Assembly (NCBI GenBank): GCA_002719775.1
Contig: PBEP01000001.1
Location: forward strand, 1-46,653
Direction: 5' to 3'
Source of the DNA: Chloroflexota bacterium
Lineage (GTDB): Bacteria; Chloroflexota; Dehalococcoidia; Lucifugimonadales; Australimonadaceae
DNA: 46,653 nt
In this document: positions 1,817 through 24,415 of the stretch, piece by piece
Numbering within the stretch: position 1 is the first letter of the stretch
Layout: each line of letters opens with the position of its first letter
The notes under the pieces: model-generated
What the model saw: only the letters and a program-made list of their open reading frames with translations
What the model was told of the DNA's origin: nothing
Databases searched by the model: none
Position numbers and translations under genes: made by a program

Positions 1817-2437
1817 GTGAAATTAAAAATGGCGTTGACCGCAGTACTAACTGATGCTACGGTTCAGATACATTTCAAGGATAGGTGCTCAAACTACGTG
1901 ACAACTACAACTCTTGAAATAGTGATCAGCGAATCCCAGATTCAAGAAGCTGTTGCGCGTTTAGCTCAGCTAATTCAAACAGACTATAAAGACCAGCCAC
2001 TTCTTGTGGTGGGTGTTTTGCACGGCTCGTTTGTTTTCCTATCCGACTTAATTCGCCAAATGCAATTACCAATCCAAGTCGATTTTGTTCGCTTATCCAG
2101 CTACGATGAGGCTACTGAGACTTCTGGTGTAGTCCGGCTTCACCACGGCGTTCGAACTCCTGTCGAGGGCAAGAATATTTTGGTGGTTGAGGATATTGTG
2201 GACACAGGATTAACCGCGAAATTTCTCCGAGAATACTTTGAGGATTTGGACGCAGCTACTTTCAGGATATGTGCGCTATTAGATAAGCCTGTTCGTAGAC
2301 GAACTCCCGTTACGGTTGACTATGTAGGGTTTGAAGTTCCCGATCAATTCCTTGTAGGTTATGGGTTAGACTACAACCAGCGCTACCGAGAGCTACGAGC
2401 CGTTTACTCTCTAGACCCTCAAACAGATGGCTCTTAG
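1817..2437 (+). CDS. hpt: Hypoxanthine phosphoribosyltransferase
   Basis: GVLHGSFVFLSDLIR, PRPP motif VVEDIVDTGLT, YVGFEVPDQFLVGYGLDYNQRYR. The true start may be downstream of 1817, since the N-terminal ~35 aa look non-homologous. Confidence 0.9.
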   Translation: MKLKMALTAVLTDATVQIHFKDRCSNYVTTTTLEIVISESQIQEAVARLAQLIQTDYKDQPLLVVGVLHGSFVFLSDLIRQMQLPIQVDFVRLSSYDEATETSGVVRLHHGVRTPVEGKNILVVEDIVDTGLTAKFLREYFEDLDAATFRICALLDKPVRRRTPVTVDYVGFEVPDQFLVGYGLDYNQRYRELRAVYSLDPQTDGS

Positions 2438-2584: not shown

Positions 2585-3883
2585 ATGTTAGAGACTCTTT
2601 TTAAGCTGAAAGCGGCAGGCACATCTGTTAGGACTGAATTGCTTGCTGGATTGGCAACATTTCTTACCATGGCGTACATCACTGTCGTTAACCCTGCTAC
2701 GTTGAGTACTGAAGGCACCGGAATGGAATTTGGTGCTGTCTTCACAGCAACGATAGTTGCAGCAGTGATCGGCACATTAATTATGGGCCTATGGGCTAAT
2801 TGGCCAGTCGCATTGGCTCCAGGAATGGGCCTTAATGCCTATTTCACTTACACTGTTATTCTTGGTGATAACTACAGCTATCAACAAGCTCTAACCGCTG
2901 TACTAGTTGCTGGAATTGTTTTCCTTGTACTGTCAGTTACTCCTGCTCGTAAATACATAATTAACTCCATACCAAAGAGTATGAAGCTGGGTGTAGGTGC
3001 AGGTATCGGTCTATTTCTGGCAATCATCGGTTTTCAGAATGCCGGTGTGATTGTCGATAACCCTGCAACACTGGTAGGACTAGGTGATGTTGCCTCAGCG
3101 CCTGTTCTCTTGGCCGGCCTAGGATTCCTAATCATGGCTGTCTTAGATAAACGTGGTATACCAGGATCGATCATCATCGGAATTTTGGTCGTCGCAATTA
3201 TTGCATGGATATTCGGTGCAGGTGGAGCTTCGTTGAGCGGAGTGGTAGACACTGTTCCAAATCCATCACATGCATTTCAGTTAGACTTCTCGGTCCTTGC
3301 TACCGGCGGGTTTATTGGAATTGCGTTTGCATTCTTGTTCGTAGACTTTCTTGATACGGCAGGGACGCTAACCTCAGTCGCTAACCTGACCGGCAGAGTC
3401 AAAGACGATGGTGAGGTTGAGGATATTGACCGTGCCTTGCTTGCTGATTCAGCGGCAACAGTTGTAGGTGCACTAGCGGGTACATCCAACACTACTTCAT
3501 ACATAGAAAGTGGTGCCGGAGTCAAAGAAGGTGGCCGCACAGGCCTAACAGCGGTCACAGTTGCAGTGCTATTTGCCGCCTGTATTTTCTTTGCACCATT
3601 GGCACAGTCCGTACCAGCTTTTGCAACTGCTCCTGCACTGATTTTTATTGCTACTTACTTCCTCCGCAATATTAAAGATATAGACTGGGATGACGTATCA
3701 GAATACGCACCCGCAGTTCTTGCTGCGATAGTCATGCCATTGACTTATAACATTGCTTATGGAATTGCTATTGGCTTTATCGCCTATGTCCTTACTAAGG
3801 CATTAAGCGGCAAGCTTGACTCTCTCAACATTGCGTCAGTAGGTATTGCAGTCGTTTCAGTACTGTTCTTCTACCTTCGCTAA
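2585..3883 (+). CDS. NCS2-family purine permease (AzgA/PbuG-like)
   Basis: RTELLAGLATFLTMAYITVVNPA, APGMGLNAYFTYTV, GTSNTTSYIESGAGVKEGGRTGLTAV motifs; SD AAGGAG upstream. Confidence 0.93.
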   Translation: MLETLFKLKAAGTSVRTELLAGLATFLTMAYITVVNPATLSTEGTGMEFGAVFTATIVAAVIGTLIMGLWANWPVALAPGMGLNAYFTYTVILGDNYSYQQALTAVLVAGIVFLVLSVTPARKYIINSIPKSMKLGVGAGIGLFLAIIGFQNAGVIVDNPATLVGLGDVASAPVLLAGLGFLIMAVLDKRGIPGSIIIGILVVAIIAWIFGAGGASLSGVVDTVPNPSHAFQLDFSVLATGGFIGIAFAFLFVDFLDTAGTLTSVANLTGRVKDDGEVEDIDRALLADSAATVVGALAGTSNTTSYIESGAGVKEGGRTGLTAVTVAVLFAACIFFAPLAQSVPAFATAPALIFIATYFLRNIKDIDWDDVSEYAPAVLAAIVMPLTYNIAYGIAIGFIAYVLTKALSGKLDSLNIASVGIAVVSVLFFYLR

Positions 3884-3972: not shown

Positions 3973-5118
3973 TCATGGTGCTCCGGGTAGGCTTTGGCAC
4001 GCTATGCCATCTGCGTTTCCGTCCAGCCGATGAGGATCGCTCGTAGGTCCTCCAGCTGCTTCGAAGAAAGCTTGAGCGTCTGCCCAGAGCGGAAAGTCCC
4101 CGCAATTACGATCAGCGCCAAAGGGATCATAGAGCAAGGAACTACTAGGTGTTGGTGTCGGAGTAGGGATTGGCGAATCATAGATTACTGTAGTTGTGTA
4201 ATATACGGCCCCTTGGCAAGTACTTGTCATCTGTTGCAAAGCTATCAACTCAGCATTGGTAACAGAGAGTTGCCATCGTGCCTTTATTGCGGCCCAGTCC
4301 TTTGCATATTGACACCAGTAACTTACATTTGTTGGCTTCCAAGCTTCAGGACCTCTGTCACCTTTCGACCGGTTTGCACTAGCTGAAACTGCAATTAGAT
4401 GATCAGTTTCTGAAATGTCATTGGCAAAGTTCTTTTTGGTTTGAGAGTCCCACTGCCAACCTCCCGATCTATGAGCGTTTGACAGTGGGACCATATGATC
4501 TATATCTACCTTGCTTGCATCGGTGAGAGTCTGCCCATTAAAAAATCCATTCCATTCCCCACTTACTACACGACATCCATCAAAAGAAACCGGAACCGCA
4601 GACTCATTAATCAAAACCTCTGCTCGGGTATCTTGGCAATCTCCATCTGCGTCAACCCAGTGATTCCAATCACCTCGGTCGTAAACAGGTAACGAGGTAG
4701 GAATTGCCCGAACGGTCAAGGCATAAGTTACGGATGTAAACATAGGAGTGGGGGTAGGTGCGGACCATGGAGTAGGAGTGGGGGTAGGTGTGGGCCATGG
4801 AGTAGGAGTTCGGATAGATGATGGTACGGGAGTAGCTATCGCTTGGGTTGTTGGCGTTGCAGTGGGGTTTGTGTGAAATGGCGTTGGTGTTGGAGTTACA
4901 TTTGGTGAAGTAAGCGCAGGCACAGGAATAGATGTCGGCGTGGGTGAGGGTGTTGGAGTGAAGGTCGGAGTTGGACTAGGTGTAGCAGTGGGATTTGCAG
5001 GTGTGGTTCTAACTTGCTCTGTTACTGTATTGGTAGGGACAGGTTCCTGGTGCGTTTCAGAACATCCAGAAACTACGAACAGAAAAGCAGCGATGATGCA
5101 AAGGTGTAATTTATTCAT
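3973..5118 (-). CDS. Secreted lipoprotein nuclease: lipobox + Thr/Pro linker + HNH (DUF1524) + Excalibur Ca-binding domain
   Basis: MNKLHLCIIAAFLFVVSGC signal; long (TP)n linker; DIDHMVPLSNAHRSGGWQW (HNH/DUF1524); C-terminal DRNCGDFPLWADAQAFFEAAGGPTSDPHRLDGNADGIACQSL (Excalibur). Start set to Met12 of the listed ORF. Confidence 0.85.
   Translation of the reverse strand: MNKLHLCIIAAFLFVVSGCSETHQEPVPTNTVTEQVRTTPANPTATPSPTPTFTPTPSPTPTSIPVPALTSPNVTPTPTPFHTNPTATPTTQAIATPVPSSIRTPTPWPTPTPTPTPWSAPTPTPMFTSVTYALTVRAIPTSLPVYDRGDWNHWVDADGDCQDTRAEVLINESAVPVSFDGCRVVSGEWNGFFNGQTLTDASKVDIDHMVPLSNAHRSGGWQWDSQTKKNFANDISETDHLIAVSASANRSKGDRGPEAWKPTNVSYWCQYAKDWAAIKARWQLSVTNAELIALQQMTSTCQGAVYYTTTVIYDSPIPTPTPTPSSSLLYDPFGADRNCGDFPLWADAQAFFEAAGGPTSDPHRLDGNADGIACQSLPGAP
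4743..4802. repeat. 30-bp tandem repeat (2 copies) within Thr/Pro linker coding sequence
   Basis: taggagtgggggtaggtgcggaccatggag / taggagtgggggtaggtgtgggccatggag; in frame, encodes TPTPW(P/S)(T/A)P-type units. Confidence 0.8.
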
Positions 5119-5273
5119 ACTGAAAATATTCGCGATTATTTTCTGAAACATACCATTAATAAATAAAAAAACTACGAAAAGCGTTTAATGATCTTAAAAT
5201 ATGTAGCTTTATGAAAATTATATGTATCATGTGCTATTAAATAGATATTTTGAAATAAAGGCACGTGAGGTAC

Positions 5274-18195: not shown

Positions 18196-18393
18196 TCAGG
18201 AATTTTTATTTTTTCCTGTAATAACCTTCACTCTTTTCTCTATTCTCGATCTTGGAATTACTAAATAGTGATTACAGAGCAAGCATCTTATGCCTATATC
18301 CGCACCAATTCGCTCAACTCGCCAAGAATTTCCACCACATGGATGCGACTTGCGAAGAGTTAAAATATCACCTAAGTGGAACTGCTTTACCAA
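18196..18393 (-). CDS. DUF951-family protein
   Basis: LGDILTLRKSHPCGGNSWRVERIGADIGIRCLLCNHYLVIPRSRIEKRVKVI; start overlaps pyrF end. Confidence 0.85.
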   Translation of the reverse strand: MVKQFHLGDILTLRKSHPCGGNSWRVERIGADIGIRCLLCNHYLVIPRSRIEKRVKVITGKNKNS

Positions 18394-19205
18394 TTGTGGC
18401 CCATAGAAGCACGTACACCATTGATCATTGTTTTCATATTAATTGCAGACTGGCGAACCTCATTAATGTAATCCCCGCCACTCCCCGCATAAATGATAGA
18501 TCTAGACGCATTGAATATCCCGCCAAAACCTTGAGGGTTCAAAGAGGCTCTAACGGTACTTTCTAGATCACCTCCTTGGGCACCAAGTCCAGGTATGAGG
18601 ATTGGCATTTCAGGGCAAATAGCTCTAACTTCCGTGATTTCTTGAGGATGTGTAGCACCAACTACCAACCCTACATTGCCTTGGGCATTCCATTCTTTTG
18701 ATTTGAGAGCTACATGTTGGTAAACAGCTAGTCCATCCTTGGATATTAAGGACTGGAAGTCATTTGAACCTATATTCGAAGTTTTACACAATACGAAGAT
18801 GCCTTTTTCACCATAGCTAAGGAAAGGTTCTATTGAATCACTACCTTGGTATGGGTTTACAGTAACGGCATCAGCCTGAAAATATTCAAAGATAGCTTTT
18901 CCATATGCTCTTGAACTATTTCCGATATCGGAACGTTTTGCATCTAATATTACTGGCACATTGCGTACTTTTGCAGCATGTATAACATTTTCTAAAGCTT
19001 CTAACCCAATCTTTCCTTCTGCTTCAAAAAACGCAATGTTTGGTTTGAAAGCACAAACTAAATCAGATGTAGCTTCCACAATCGAGACTACAAAAGATGA
19101 CAGGTCTTGAATCGGTAAATTTGGACGCCAAGGATCAATCCCAATACAAAGCAGGGAATTATTGCGTTGTGCTGTGTCATCTATGTTATGAACAAATCGC
19201 GACAT
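18387..19205 (-). CDS. pyrF: Orotidine 5'-phosphate decarboxylase (type 2)
   Basis: LCIGIDPWRPNLP, FKPNIAFFEAEG, VPVILDAKRSDIGNSSRAYGKAIF, ADAVTVNPYQGSDSIEPFL. Confidence 0.93.
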   Translation of the reverse strand: MSRFVHNIDDTAQRNNSLLCIGIDPWRPNLPIQDLSSFVVSIVEATSDLVCAFKPNIAFFEAEGKIGLEALENVIHAAKVRNVPVILDAKRSDIGNSSRAYGKAIFEYFQADAVTVNPYQGSDSIEPFLSYGEKGIFVLCKTSNIGSNDFQSLISKDGLAVYQHVALKSKEWNAQGNVGLVVGATHPQEITEVRAICPEMPILIPGLGAQGGDLESTVRASLNPQGFGGIFNASRSIIYAGSGGDYINEVRQSAINMKTMINGVRASMGHNW

Positions 19206-19289: not shown

Positions 19290-19964
19290 ATGACATCCAA
19301 AAGGGCCTTGTTAAATGAAACTTTTCATAGACTGTTTCGCTTCTATGGTCCTCAAGGGTGGTGGCCAGCAGAGAACCAATTTGAAATGATGCTTGGCGCA
19401 GTACTTACCCAAAATACGACTTGGCAAAACGCAGAGAAAGCATTATCAAAGTTGCGTTCCACAGGACATTTGACGCTGCAGTCAGTTTTGGAACTGGAAG
19501 AATCCGACTTAGGTTCAATGATTCGATCAAGTGGGTTTTATAATAATAAAACAAAAACTCTCAAAGCCTTAGCACTATATTTCAAGAATATAGGTGGTAA
19601 TTTCAAAGATTTTAAAATAGAAGAAATGGGCGATTTGCGTCGTGATCTCTTATCTATTATTGGCATTGGAGAGGAGACTGCAGACGATATTATTTTGTAT
19701 GCTGCAAAATTACCTTCATTTGTAATAGATGCATACACAATCAGAATTCTCGAACGCTTGGGTATCACACCAAAATCGAAAAGATACCATGAATACAAAA
19801 AGTTAATGGAGGAGAATTTAGACACAGATGTAAAACTATGGAGTGAATACCATGCGCTATTAGATGTTCACGCTAAAGGCATTTGTACTAAAAATAATCC
19901 TCGGTGCGAAGCTTGTTGCCTTTTTGATATTTGCGAATTCTATAAACAACCACGATCTACTTAA
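19290..19964 (+). CDS. HhH-GPD DNA glycosylase, endonuclease III/MagIII-like, with [4Fe-4S] loop
   Basis: GPQGWWPAENQFEMMLGAVLTQNTTWQNAEKAL; IIGIGEETADDIILYAAKLPSFVIDAYTIRILERLG; C-x6-C-x2-C-x5-C (CTKNNPRCEACCLFDIC). The Nth catalytic Lys position (GVGRKTA) appears to be Glu (GIGEETA). Confidence 0.82.
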   Translation: MTSKRALLNETFHRLFRFYGPQGWWPAENQFEMMLGAVLTQNTTWQNAEKALSKLRSTGHLTLQSVLELEESDLGSMIRSSGFYNNKTKTLKALALYFKNIGGNFKDFKIEEMGDLRRDLLSIIGIGEETADDIILYAAKLPSFVIDAYTIRILERLGITPKSKRYHEYKKLMEENLDTDVKLWSEYHALLDVHAKGICTKNNPRCEACCLFDICEFYKQPRST

Positions 19965-21113
19965 TTATCTTTGAGGGATTGCTTTTGGTTCGACTACATT
20001 CATTGAATAAACATTTGGCAAATTGCGGTATACCTCATTATAGTCAAGACCATAGCCCACTATGAATTCGTCAGGTACCTCGAAACCAATGTAGCTTAGA
20101 TTTACATCTGAGACTCTGCGTGCGCGTTTATCAAACATTACACATACAGAAATACTAGAAGGATGCTTATCCTGAATATGCTGCATTATTGGGCGTAAAG
20201 TTAGCCCAGTATCCATAATACCTTCCACTAATATCACATTTCTTCCTTCAATATTTACTTCTATATCTCGGGTGATCTCTACTGATAACTTTTCTTCATT
20301 GCCGTACCTTGAAACACTCATAAAAGCTACTTCAATTTGCAGATCAATAGCGCGTACAAGATCTGATAGAAAAACAAATGATCCTCGCAGTACACCGATA
20401 AGCACTGGCGGCTCGCCAGAATAATCTTCGGTAATCTTTAGGGCGATTTCCGATACTCTCTTGCGAATTTGCAGTTCAGAAAATAATACAGACCCCAGTC
20501 CTTCCACCTCAGCATCAACCATAGGACCATAGCCATATTTGCCTAAAAGGCGAATATAATCTCTCCTATACAGCAACTGGATGTTGATTTCAGGGTAGAG
20601 CTCTTTTAATTGCCTGAGTTTTCTATTCTTTTGAGTTACTAAGCTTTGCTTCATTGTTGTTAATTCAAAATATTGATCTTGGTCAGGCAAATAAAAATCA
20701 GGAGAGTGCATCTCTACAACTCTATTGCCCTCCCATCTCAATGGAAAAGACCTGGGTTCATATAAGTACGGTATTTCGTAATAGTCCAATAATTTAGCAA
20801 ATTCTCTTTCACTAGGATGCATAAAAGAGACATCAGCAGTGTCTGAGGGGACTGCACCTTTTGTATTGATCATTCCTTCCAAATTTATAGGAATGCCTTT
20901 ACGCCTACCTCTTCTAAGGGGGCGGTAGGTTTTATTAAATCTACTGTTATGCTCATTGTCTTTCGGTTCCGACTTTGGGCTTGAGGGTTCGGAAGTATCT
21001 ATTGCTTCTTTGGGTGAAGAGGAATCTGAAGAGAAGTCAATTCGCCTCTCATTTGAAACTTCAGAATTCGTATCAAATTCTCCATCGCCATTTTTAATTA
21101 ATTTGGGCACCAT
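19965..21113 (-). CDS. Fusion protein: disordered/basic N-term + PD-(D/E)XK-like domain + hypoxanthine phosphoribosyltransferase-like domain
   Basis: N-terminal HPSEREFAKLLDYYEIPYLYEPRSFPLRW..HSPDFYLPDQDQYFELTTMKQSLVTQKNRKLRQLKELYPEINIQLLYRRDY; C-terminal GVLRGSFVFLSDLVRAI..ILVEGIMDTGLT..YIGFEVPDEFIVGYGLDYNEVYR. Confidence 0.8.
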   Translation of the reverse strand: MVPKLIKNGDGEFDTNSEVSNERRIDFSSDSSSPKEAIDTSEPSSPKSEPKDNEHNSRFNKTYRPLRRGRRKGIPINLEGMINTKGAVPSDTADVSFMHPSEREFAKLLDYYEIPYLYEPRSFPLRWEGNRVVEMHSPDFYLPDQDQYFELTTMKQSLVTQKNRKLRQLKELYPEINIQLLYRRDYIRLLGKYGYGPMVDAEVEGLGSVLFSELQIRKRVSEIALKITEDYSGEPPVLIGVLRGSFVFLSDLVRAIDLQIEVAFMSVSRYGNEEKLSVEITRDIEVNIEGRNVILVEGIMDTGLTLRPIMQHIQDKHPSSISVCVMFDKRARRVSDVNLSYIGFEVPDEFIVGYGLDYNEVYRNLPNVYSMNVVEPKAIPQR

Positions 21114-21145: not shown

Positions 21146-24100
21146 TTAAAGACCGGTTACATATTCATTAACAGTTGCCACTTTTACATCATTACTCGAG
21201 GTGCTAACCGCTTCAATGGCTGCTTTAGCTGTATCCATTGAAGTGTAACAAGGAATTCTCCTCTCTGTAGCTGCTCTTCTAATAGCGAACCCGTCTTTAA
21301 GGGCTTCTGTAACTTCTTCGATAGTATTCACTACTCCAGATACAAGCCCTTCCTCTACAATGCTTACGGCATTAGGTGTAGGTTCACCTGCTTTGTTAAC
21401 TTTTTTGACTGGGATTCCCAACTGGGTAATCAATTTTGACGTACCTTCAGTTGCAAACAAAGTGTAACCAGCATTGGCCAGATCCTTAATCAAATACTTA
21501 GCATCATTTTTGTCTTTGTTGGCAATGGTTAGAAGCAAAGATCCTTTAGGTGGGAGCATGAAATCAGATGCTGCTAGAGCTTTAGACAAAGCACCAGTAA
21601 CTGTGACATCAATCCCCATTACTTCTCCTGTGGACTTCATCTCAGGTCCAAGGTAAGTGTCTACACCCACTAATTTAGACATAGAAAATACAGGAGCTTT
21701 GATTCCCACTAATGGTTTTTGATCCTGCAGGCCATTCTTGTAACCGAGTGCGTTTATTGAAGCACCCAACATTACCTGCGTAGCAAGCTTAACCATGGGC
21801 ACTGTGGTAATTTTAGAAATGAAAGGAATTGTTCTGCTAGCACGCGGATTTACTTCTATTACATAAATCTCACTTGAATCAGACCCTTGATCCATTATTA
21901 CATACTGAATATTCATTAGCCCGTTGATTTGCATAACCCTGCCTATACGCTCTGTATAATCTATGAGTTGCAATACTTCATCATTTGTTAAATTTATGGG
22001 TGGATATACAGCCATGGAATCGCCTGAATGGACTCCAGCTCGTTCAACATGCTCCATAATTCCAGGTATAAGGATGGAGGTACCGTCGGACACAGCATCT
22101 ACTTCTACTTCAATGCCTTTGAAATATTTATCTATAAGGATTGGATGATTAGGCGATGCAAGTAGTGCTGCAGACAAATATTCTGAAAGCTGATTTGCGC
22201 CATCAACTATTTCCATAGCCCTCCCTCCTAATACATAGGAAGGACGGACAAGGATTGGGTAGCCCAGAGTATCGGCTACATTCAATCCTTCTTCGACTGA
22301 AATTACCGTCGCACCGGGGGGTTGTGGGACACCTGCGCTTTCCATTAGTTCCCCGAACTTTTGACGGTCAGAAGCGGCATCTATGGTATCAGCAGAAGAT
22401 CCCAATAAAGGCAAACCTACACGATCAATAACCTGACTAAGGTTTATAGCGGTTTGACCACCAAACTGGACCATTGATATGGGACAATCCCCCGTGTCAT
22501 TGGCCGTCTCATTTAGCAGTACATCTCTAATGCTTTCTTCATCCAATGGTTCGAAATAAAGCCTGTCAGAAGTATCGAAATCAGTAGATACAGTTTCAGG
22601 ATTTGAGTTGATCATAATTGAACGATACCCTGATTCTTGAAGTGCCCATGCTGCATGGACAGAACAGTAATCAAACTCTATTCCTTGGCCTATTCGAATT
22701 GGGCCTGATCCAATCACCAGTGCTCTTTTACCTGTCAATGGAATAGCTTCATTTTCAACGTCGTAACAAGAATAAAAGTAAGGAGTTAGAGCTTCAAATT
22801 CTGCGGCACATGTATCAACCATTTTATAAGAAGGTTTTATGCCCAATTCCAACCGGAGATTTCTTACTTGATCTGCTATTTTGTCGCTGAGAGTAGCTAT
22901 GACTTCATCAGAAAAACCCAACTTCTTAGCTTCGAGTAGCAAATCCGGGGAGAGTTCTTTGGCCAACAAGGATTGCTCCATTCGGATGATCGCAGCAATT
23001 TTATCTAAAAACCAAGGATCGAAGAAACATAATTTAGCTAGAGCATTCGTGGGAACGCCTCTACGAACCGCGGTAACAATTGACCATATTCTTTCATCAC
23101 TTGCATGAAATGGTAATTCTTCTCCTTTGAGACCTTGCCATTCAGGGTTTTCCCATAACAAAGATTTCCCATTAATTTCAAGCGACCTTATAGCTTTTTG
23201 TAGTGCAGACTCAAAGTTTCGGTCTATAGCCATTACCTCGCCAGTCGCTTTCATTTGAGTTCCTAATTGTCGATGACCAAATGGAAACTTATCGAAAGGC
23301 CATCGAGGAATTTTCACTACGCAATAGTCTAAAGTAGGCTCAAAGGCAGCCTTCGTACGCTGAGTGACTGCGTTTGTGATTTGATCAAGGCGTTTACCAA
23401 TCGCAATTTTAGCTGCCACTCTTGCAATTGGATAACCAGTTGCTTTTGAAGCTAATGCTGAAGATCTACTCACCCTAGGATTTACCTCAATAACATAATA
23501 AGAAAGAGGTTCCGGATTTTGTCCAGGTAAAGCTTCCCCTATTAGGGGATGCGGCGAAAGTGCAAATTGAACGTTGCAGCCGCCTCTGATGTCTAGAGCT
23601 CGGATAATTCTCAAGCTTGCAGACCGAAGGGTTTGGTATTCTGGGTCTGATAAGGTCTGACTAGGCGCGACTACTATACTATCGCCAGTATGAACACCCA
23701 TGGGATCAAGGTTTTCCATATTGCAAATCGTAATGCAAGTATCTGCTGCATCACGCATCACTTCATACTCTATTTCCTTCCATCCCAATAATGATCTTTC
23801 TATCAGAATTTGGCCTATGGGGCTTGCAGAAATGCCTGATTGAGCAATTTCTTTCAGCTCGGTTTCATTATTAGCAAACCCTCCACCCGTACCCCCAAGT
23901 GTGTAAGCTGGCCTTATAGCTACAGGTAATCCAATCTGCCTTGCCGCTTCAATGGCACCCTCAAGAGTAGTTACAATTTGGCTGGGCGGTGTTGGCTCAC
24001 CAATAGAATCAAGTAATTCCCTAAATTTCGCTCTATCCTCAGCTTGGCGTATAGTTTCAATAGAAGTACCTAGTAGGGCAACTTCATAGCGTTCTAAAAT

Positions 24101-24415
24101 ACCCGCGTCAGAAAGCGCAACCGCCAAATTTAAACCGGTTTGGCCACCAAGAGTTGGCAACAGACCATCAGGGCGCTCAAGATCAATAATGCGCTCCAAA
24201 ACCTTAACCGTTAGCGGTTCAATATAAACACGGTCAGCTACATCAGAATCCGTCATTATGGTAGCCGGATTTGAGTTAACCAATACTGTGGTTATTCCCT
24301 CTTCTCTCAATGATTTACAAGCTTGAGTGCCGGCGTAATCAAATTCTGCTGCCTGACCTATAATTATTGGACCTGACCCTATTACAAGTACTTTTTGGGG
24401 GACTTTATTTTTCAA
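21146..24415 (-). CDS. carB: Carbamoyl-phosphate synthase large subunit
   Basis: KVLVIGSGPIIIGQAAEFDYAGTQACKSLREEGI; duplicated ATP-grasp halves; RALVIGSGPIRIGQGIEFDYCSVHAAWAL. Confidence 0.98.
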   Translation of the reverse strand: MKNKVPQKVLVIGSGPIIIGQAAEFDYAGTQACKSLREEGITTVLVNSNPATIMTDSDVADRVYIEPLTVKVLERIIDLERPDGLLPTLGGQTGLNLAVALSDAGILERYEVALLGTSIETIRQAEDRAKFRELLDSIGEPTPPSQIVTTLEGAIEAARQIGLPVAIRPAYTLGGTGGGFANNETELKEIAQSGISASPIGQILIERSLLGWKEIEYEVMRDAADTCITICNMENLDPMGVHTGDSIVVAPSQTLSDPEYQTLRSASLRIIRALDIRGGCNVQFALSPHPLIGEALPGQNPEPLSYYVIEVNPRVSRSSALASKATGYPIARVAAKIAIGKRLDQITNAVTQRTKAAFEPTLDYCVVKIPRWPFDKFPFGHRQLGTQMKATGEVMAIDRNFESALQKAIRSLEINGKSLLWENPEWQGLKGEELPFHASDERIWSIVTAVRRGVPTNALAKLCFFDPWFLDKIAAIIRMEQSLLAKELSPDLLLEAKKLGFSDEVIATLSDKIADQVRNLRLELGIKPSYKMVDTCAAEFEALTPYFYSCYDVENEAIPLTGKRALVIGSGPIRIGQGIEFDYCSVHAAWALQESGYRSIMINSNPETVSTDFDTSDRLYFEPLDEESIRDVLLNETANDTGDCPISMVQFGGQTAINLSQVIDRVGLPLLGSSADTIDAASDRQKFGELMESAGVPQPPGATVISVEEGLNVADTLGYPILVRPSYVLGGRAMEIVDGANQLSEYLSAALLASPNHPILIDKYFKGIEVEVDAVSDGTSILIPGIMEHVERAGVHSGDSMAVYPPINLTNDEVLQLIDYTERIGRVMQINGLMNIQYVIMDQGSDSSEIYVIEVNPRASRTIPFISKITTVPMVKLATQVMLGASINALGYKNGLQDQKPLVGIKAPVFSMSKLVGVDTYLGPEMKSTGEVMGIDVTVTGALSKALAASDFMLPPKGSLLLTIANKDKNDAKYLIKDLANAGYTLFATEGTSKLITQLGIPVKKVNKAGEPTPNAVSIVEEGLVSGVVNTIEEVTEALKDGFAIRRAATERRIPCYTSMDTAKAAIEAVSTSSNDVKVATVNEYVTGL

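Follow-up and report, generated by a model that had tools for sequence, protein, structure and literature searches.

A T7-endonuclease-I-like domain joined to a separate hypoxanthine phosphoribosyltransferase subfamily in several bacterial phyla, and its possible role between nucleotide supply and nucleic acids

The window, by which we mean the whole stretch of 46,653 nucleotides that was analysed, contains a reverse-strand gene whose product combines a disordered tail, a predicted nuclease-fold domain (hereafter ENDO) and a hypoxanthine phosphoribosyltransferase (HPRT) domain. The genes, domains and motifs discussed below are as follows (residue numbers are those of the fusion protein).

19965..21113, reverse strand: ENDO-HPRT fusion gene (disordered tail, ENDO domain and HPRT), 382 aa, ATG start
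20832..21113, reverse strand: N-terminal tail, residues 1-94, rich in Ser, Glu, Lys and Arg, with the basic patch YRPLRRGRRKG; sequence unconserved
20514..20828, reverse strand: predicted T7-endonuclease-I-like PD-(D/E)XK-fold domain, residues ~96-200, from profiles, fold model and Foldseek
20808..20825, reverse strand: FMHPSE (97-102), in which the alignment places the invariant E102 at Glu20 of T7 endonuclease I; H99 nearly invariant
Residues 118-123 (located by residue only), reverse strand: YEPRSF, present in the protein
20685..20705, reverse strand: SPDFYLP (137-143), with invariant P138-D139, D139 aligned with T7 Asp55
20649..20669, reverse strand: FELTTMK (149-155), with invariant E150 aligned with T7 Glu65 and T152 at the Lys67 position
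20613..20636, reverse strand: TQKNRKLR (160-167), on the next helix, with K162 and K165 as candidates, from their conservation, for a migrated lysine
20001..20489, reverse strand: HPRT domain, residues 209-371, TIGR01203 174.4 bits
20205..20228, reverse strand: HPRT loop III, VEGIMDTG (296-303), with Gly298 at the Asp100 position and Asp301 corresponding to the retained Asp103 (numbering of B. anthracis Hpt-1)
21146..24415, reverse strand: carB, 32 nt upstream of the fusion gene
1817..2437, forward strand: ordinary second HPRT of the window's genome, beside a putative purine-permease-like gene (2585-3883, forward strand)

An earlier note, made from the letters of this DNA alone, had described a Ser/Glu/Arg-rich N-tail, a restriction-endonuclease-like module and an HPRT-like domain in one protein encoded 32 nt downstream of carB. 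The coordinates agree with this spacing, measured from the carB stop to the fusion gene start, and all the motifs quoted there were found at exact positions. The tail is of low complexity and charged (Ser, Glu, Arg, Lys, Asp and Pro predominate), and it is poorly conserved among homologues. A pyrF-like (OMP decarboxylase) gene (18387-19205, reverse strand) lies on the same strand as carA, carB and the fusion gene; between it and these three stands an endonuclease-III-like (HhH base-excision) gene (19290-19964, forward strand), which is convergent with the fusion gene and ends on the base adjacent to it.

The fusion is real and is not the oddity of a single genome. It is intact in 28 of 59 related genomes (the window's own counted), so that the break in close relatives named in the earlier note as grounds for refutation was not seen, and its occurrence in single-contig genomes and in many lineages rules out an assembly artefact. 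Pfam and NCBIfam models recognise only the HPRT domain in the window protein (PF00156, 90 bits; TIGR01203, 174 bits against a curated cut-off of 150), and no Pfam, NCBIfam or PADLOC model matches the N-domain above its cut-off. The nature of the N-domain was approached through profile and structure comparisons, which agree with the earlier suggestion that a nuclease-fold module has been joined to the HPRT.

A profile of this domain (residues ~96-205) was built from an alignment of related genomes and, when searched against PDB sequences, it retrieved only phage endonuclease I, with E=0.0027 for a profile of 19 sequences and 3.9e-5 for one of 42. The Pfam family Phage_endo_I (PF05367) matched 26 of these 42 members (best E=4.1e-5; best single-domain values 3.7e-5 to 4.1e-5); it did not match the window domain itself, and full-length homologues scored 14-17 bits against it, below the gathering cut-off of 29.1 bits. 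Used alone as a query, the window domain found the annotated endodeoxyribonuclease I of Pelagibacter phages (E=7e-4), as well as endonuclease and Holliday-resolvase families of PHROG. Because Foldseek returned only HPRTs for the full-length protein, the N-domain was folded alone with AF2. The resulting model (mean pLDDT 85) has the order alpha-beta-beta-beta-alpha-beta, which is the core topology of the PD-(D/E)XK superfamily, with elements H8-19, E31-36, E39-44, E48-50, E55-60, H64-80 and E86-90 in domain numbering. Its Foldseek matches in the PDB are modest (best E about 1e-3) and include the PD-(D/E)XK nucleases R2 endonuclease, Bax1, AbaSI, Vsr, TnsA and I-Bth0305I, together with mitoribosomal large-subunit proteins; those among viral models are phage Endonuclease I, Holliday resolvase and DUF559 proteins. 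Taken together, the profiles and the structure model support the assignment of the N-domain to a PD-(D/E)XK fold related to T7 endonuclease I, as the earlier note had proposed for the fold (so that its other ground for refutation, a model lacking this topology, did not arise either), and a chance resemblance of motifs is ruled out by the profile, tblastn and fold evidence.

ENDO and T7 endonuclease I have in common the fold, the order of motifs, a basic helix past the last strand and the residues Glu20, Asp55 and Glu65, the catalytic acids of the phage enzyme. The equivalents of these three (E102, D139 and E150) are kept without exception in all 170 distinct cellular sequences. However, the position of the catalytic Lys67 is occupied by Thr (T152) in all 170, and a lysine two residues past the (D/E), the mark of active PD-(D/E)XK enzymes, occurs in 0 of the 170 cellular members. 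Phage relatives keep a Lys there, in 74 of 77 by motif count and in 41 of 42 aligned viral sequences. ENDO has in addition a helix lysine absent from the phage pattern: K162 is present in 170/170 and K165 in 169/170 cellular sequences, whereas in phage relatives the K162 position is usually taken by Ala, Asp or Ser, a Lys often being found at the K165 position there as well. Further differences from T7 endonuclease I are a near-invariant His ahead of the first Glu (H99, 129/132), the HPRT partner, scores below the Pfam gathering value and occurrence in cells rather than phages. K155, at the end of FELTTMK, was considered as a shifted catalytic lysine and rejected, homologues having Arg, Ser, Asn, Asp or Glu in its place.

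With an invariant Thr standing where the catalytic lysine would be, the domain cannot be presumed to be an active nuclease, and the description of the domain as nuclease-like stands for its fold and its three acids but not for the complete catalytic set. The loss of the lysine can be read in three ways: its role may have passed to a lysine of the helix, the chemistry may have changed, or the domain may bind metal without cleaving. Invariance of three acids would not be expected in a dead scaffold. In the fusion proteins conservation is higher in ENDO (mean pairwise identity 75%) than in the HPRT part (59%), and this holds for 210 of 210 sequence pairs; judged from these alignments, chance falls far short of explaining the nuclease-like module.

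A genome-wide scan yielded 398 relatives of the N-domain, and 170 distinct ones were read together with their surroundings; these come from the best-scoring loci and from surveys of four phyla and are not a random sample. Loci beyond the first relatives were retrieved by the N-domain only, so that linkage to HPRT, which was counted through six-frame profile searches, was not built into the search. An HPRT is fused to the domain in 93 of the 170 and is the next gene downstream, in the same direction, in 61 (together 154/170); 9 others have one within 4 kb, and in 7 no HPRT was found in the stretch read. Additional modules occur as well: a cytidylate-kinase-like protein (PF13189) is linked in 26/170 (22 fused, 4 adjacent) in the order kinase-ENDO-HPRT, and in 34/170 ENDO is preceded by a GAF domain within one fused protein, the two being alternative extras. 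The PF13189 proteins carry the same ENDO domain, fused C-terminally to the kinase with the HPRT gene next door, whereas in the window's lineage the kinase is neither fused nor adjacent, a PF13189 match being found elsewhere in the window's genome. Weak ENDO-like matches were also seen within two very large open frames of 1705-2180 aa (G092:C19 and G321:C54).

Strong ENDO matches (about 100 bits or more, tallied from listed scores) were present in 98 of 301 Chloroflexota genomes (110 at E<=0.001), in 10 of 149 genomes of the phylum of one Acidobacteria genome, in 93 of 199 of the phylum of one 'Actinobacteria' MAG and in 19 of 200 of the phylum of one Bacillota MAG. ENDO and HPRT, fused or neighbouring, occur in at least five bacterial phyla, the linked genomes being labelled Chloroflexota, Acidobacteriota, Bacillota, Methylomirabilota, Dormibacterota and Actinobacteria. 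ENDO is mostly found in one copy per genome, among housekeeping neighbours that are stable within a lineage. By these sequence comparisons, the window protein appears to be one architecture of a conserved two-part module consisting of ENDO and a dedicated HPRT subfamily, and the fusion, which had seemed unexpected at this locus, recurs as such a module in several phyla. Its tight linkage across phyla implies a basic cellular function, as yet unnamed.

The HPRT part is a full-length member of the TIGR01203 family and is about 44% identical to solved bacterial HPRTs, but it belongs to a separate, ENDO-tied subfamily. The HPRT tree gathers nearly all ENDO-linked rows, of the fused and the adjacent kind alike, into a single clade (60 rows, 59 of them linked and 1 not; support 91/83) and leaves two linked rows outside. 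In B. anthracis Hpt-1, the side chains of Glu99 and Asp100 in loop III (EDIIDSGLT) contact ppGpp and the PRPP site, Asp103-Thr107 make contacts by their backbone, Lys131 binds the base and Arg165 the phosphates (PMC6783271). The window protein keeps Glu99, Asp103, Lys131 and Arg165 and has Gly298 in place of Asp100, and its set is thus incomplete. A clade from Thermomicrobia and Dormibacterota has Asn instead of the Asp103-position Asp, the base-contacting acid of 6-oxopurine enzymes, and mostly Asn at the second acid (IPN). The two acid-to-Asn changes, VEDI(V/I)NTG with mostly IPN(D/E), are seen in L069, L073, L080, L087, L194, L207 and other loci, and one Chloroflexota fusion (L250, G305:C17) has a strongly degraded HPRT active site (GLGSS, VADVVSTG) next to an intact ENDO motif. 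Changes in the HPRT active site occur in some lineages, changes in the ENDO acids in none; this pattern fits an HPRT that would, in a number of lineages at least, be the ligand-binding partner. Most lineages have an intact active site, so that the HPRT part could be a working enzyme and need not be a pure sensor.

A second HPRT above the curated cut-off was found in 26 of 30 ENDO-bearing genomes examined, with none in the other 4. The one in the window's genome (1817-2437) and the putative purine-permease-like gene beside it are likely to be the salvage pair of that genome. Genes annotated simply as hypoxanthine phosphoribosyltransferase may in many cases not encode the enzyme on which their cell relies for salvage.

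The gene contexts are lineage-specific, and no single conserved neighbour that would explain the function was found. In 18 loci of the window's order the fusion gene follows carB, in 22-25 Dehalococcoidia loci GAF-ENDO-HPRT comes after nrdR and a gene for a class II ribonucleotide reductase (nrdJ), and UPF0182 genes lie upstream of the fusion in 26 loci from Dormibacterota and soil Chloroflexota (e.g., L069, L081, L087 and L268). Nucleotide biosynthesis therefore accounts for two of the three main contexts, and the placement of the gene at the end of a pyr operon, as first proposed, holds in the window's order as one of several settings, others being ribonucleotide reductase and the CMP-kinase-like gene.

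We tentatively favour, with a probability of about 42%, a module acting on nucleic acid under the control of purine nucleotides or PRPP; ligand control, metal and nucleic-acid binding and catalysis are steps that we infer. The HPRT part would bind PRPP and purine nucleotides, possibly also (p)ppGpp, and in this way would control ENDO, which would act on nucleic acid and in which E102, D139 and E150 would hold a metal while a candidate lysine of the next helix (K162 or K165) would stand in for the lost strand lysine. The canonical catalytic lysine missing from every cellular member speaks against this mechanism, as do the mostly intact active site of HPRT and three genomes of the window's family (G003, G012 and G013) in which the fused HPRT is the sole one found. 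The interpretation in the earlier note, which ranged from a nucleic-acid-binding regulator to a nucleotide-sensing nuclease, is to this extent partly supported by sequence and model. A more far-reaching version is possible and is held with less assurance: a multi-phylum regulatory system, so far undescribed, in which HPRT, with CMP-kinase-like or GAF sensors, would switch a rebuilt nuclease-fold effector (strand Lys changed to Thr, Lys moved to the next helix), such that purine nucleotide and PRPP levels would set nucleic-acid processing. The module would then tie purine supply to nucleic-acid handling. The recurrence of ENDO with HPRT points to a widespread, undescribed link of this kind, and no paper describing the ENDO-HPRT module or combination was found in the open-access papers searched. 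Each part comes from a known fold family; the conserved module, seen as a system, may turn out to be categorically new when it becomes clear what it does. The parts are small and have well-studied relatives, and hence should be easy to test.

Two other explanations are serious rivals, although we consider both unlikely. According to the first, ENDO is the allosteric or assembly domain of a purine-nucleotide enzyme complex (CMP-kinase-like protein, ENDO and HPRT), its pocket binding a nucleotide and no nucleic acid being involved. The near-obligate link to HPRT, the frequent link to an NMP-kinase-like protein, the HPRT active site preserved in most lineages and the genomes having only the fused HPRT are all consistent with such a complex, but the fold and closest relatives of ENDO are those of nucleic-acid enzymes, and decay has affected active-site residues of HPRT and not those of ENDO.

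The second, which we rate as similarly doubtful, takes ENDO as an RNA- or DNA-binding domain that does not cleave, and the protein as a ligand-dependent regulator of nucleotide genes resembling PyrR, a phosphoribosyltransferase turned RNA-binding regulator. The window protein shares with PyrR a phosphoribosyltransferase domain encoded beside pyrimidine genes and, conceptually, the idea of a ligand-sensing enzyme; it differs in that its domain is an HPRT (the NCBIfam PyrR model gives 38 bits, below its cut-off of 218) and in that a separate nuclease-fold domain would be the part that binds nucleic acid. Loss of the nuclease-motif lysine in all members, the basic disordered tails in the window's lineage, adjacency to carB and nrdR-nrdJ, HPRT active-site acids gone in some lineages and the mitoribosomal Foldseek matches argue for this regulator. 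Three metal-binding acids kept in 170/170 are hard to explain without metal chemistry, though, and no single operon can be the target because the neighbours vary by lineage.

That the protein is a cellular nuclease for resolving junctions or repairing DNA, joined to a salvage enzyme by happenstance, seems very improbable. Its closest solved relative is indeed the junction resolvase T7 endonuclease I, the Phage_endo_I family being known for junction-selective cleavage and a domain-swapped dimer, and PHROG matches include Holliday junction resolvase. Yet 57 of 59 relatives, fusion carriers included, have RuvC, which makes the fusion protein an unlikely replacement for it, the recurrent neighbours belong to nucleotide synthesis rather than repair, and the catalytic Lys is absent. 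An anti-phage defence effector set off by nucleotide changes, as a nuclease fold with a nucleotide-binding partner and weak PADLOC matches of some homologues might suggest, is hardly credible given that no PADLOC model matches the window protein (E<=0.01) and that mostly single copies in lineage-stable housekeeping surroundings are unlike mobile defence islands.

Elsewhere in the window, a reverse-strand gene (3973-5151) encodes a secreted-looking protein in which long Pro/Thr repeats are followed by what appears by eye to be an HNH/excalibur-like nuclease region.
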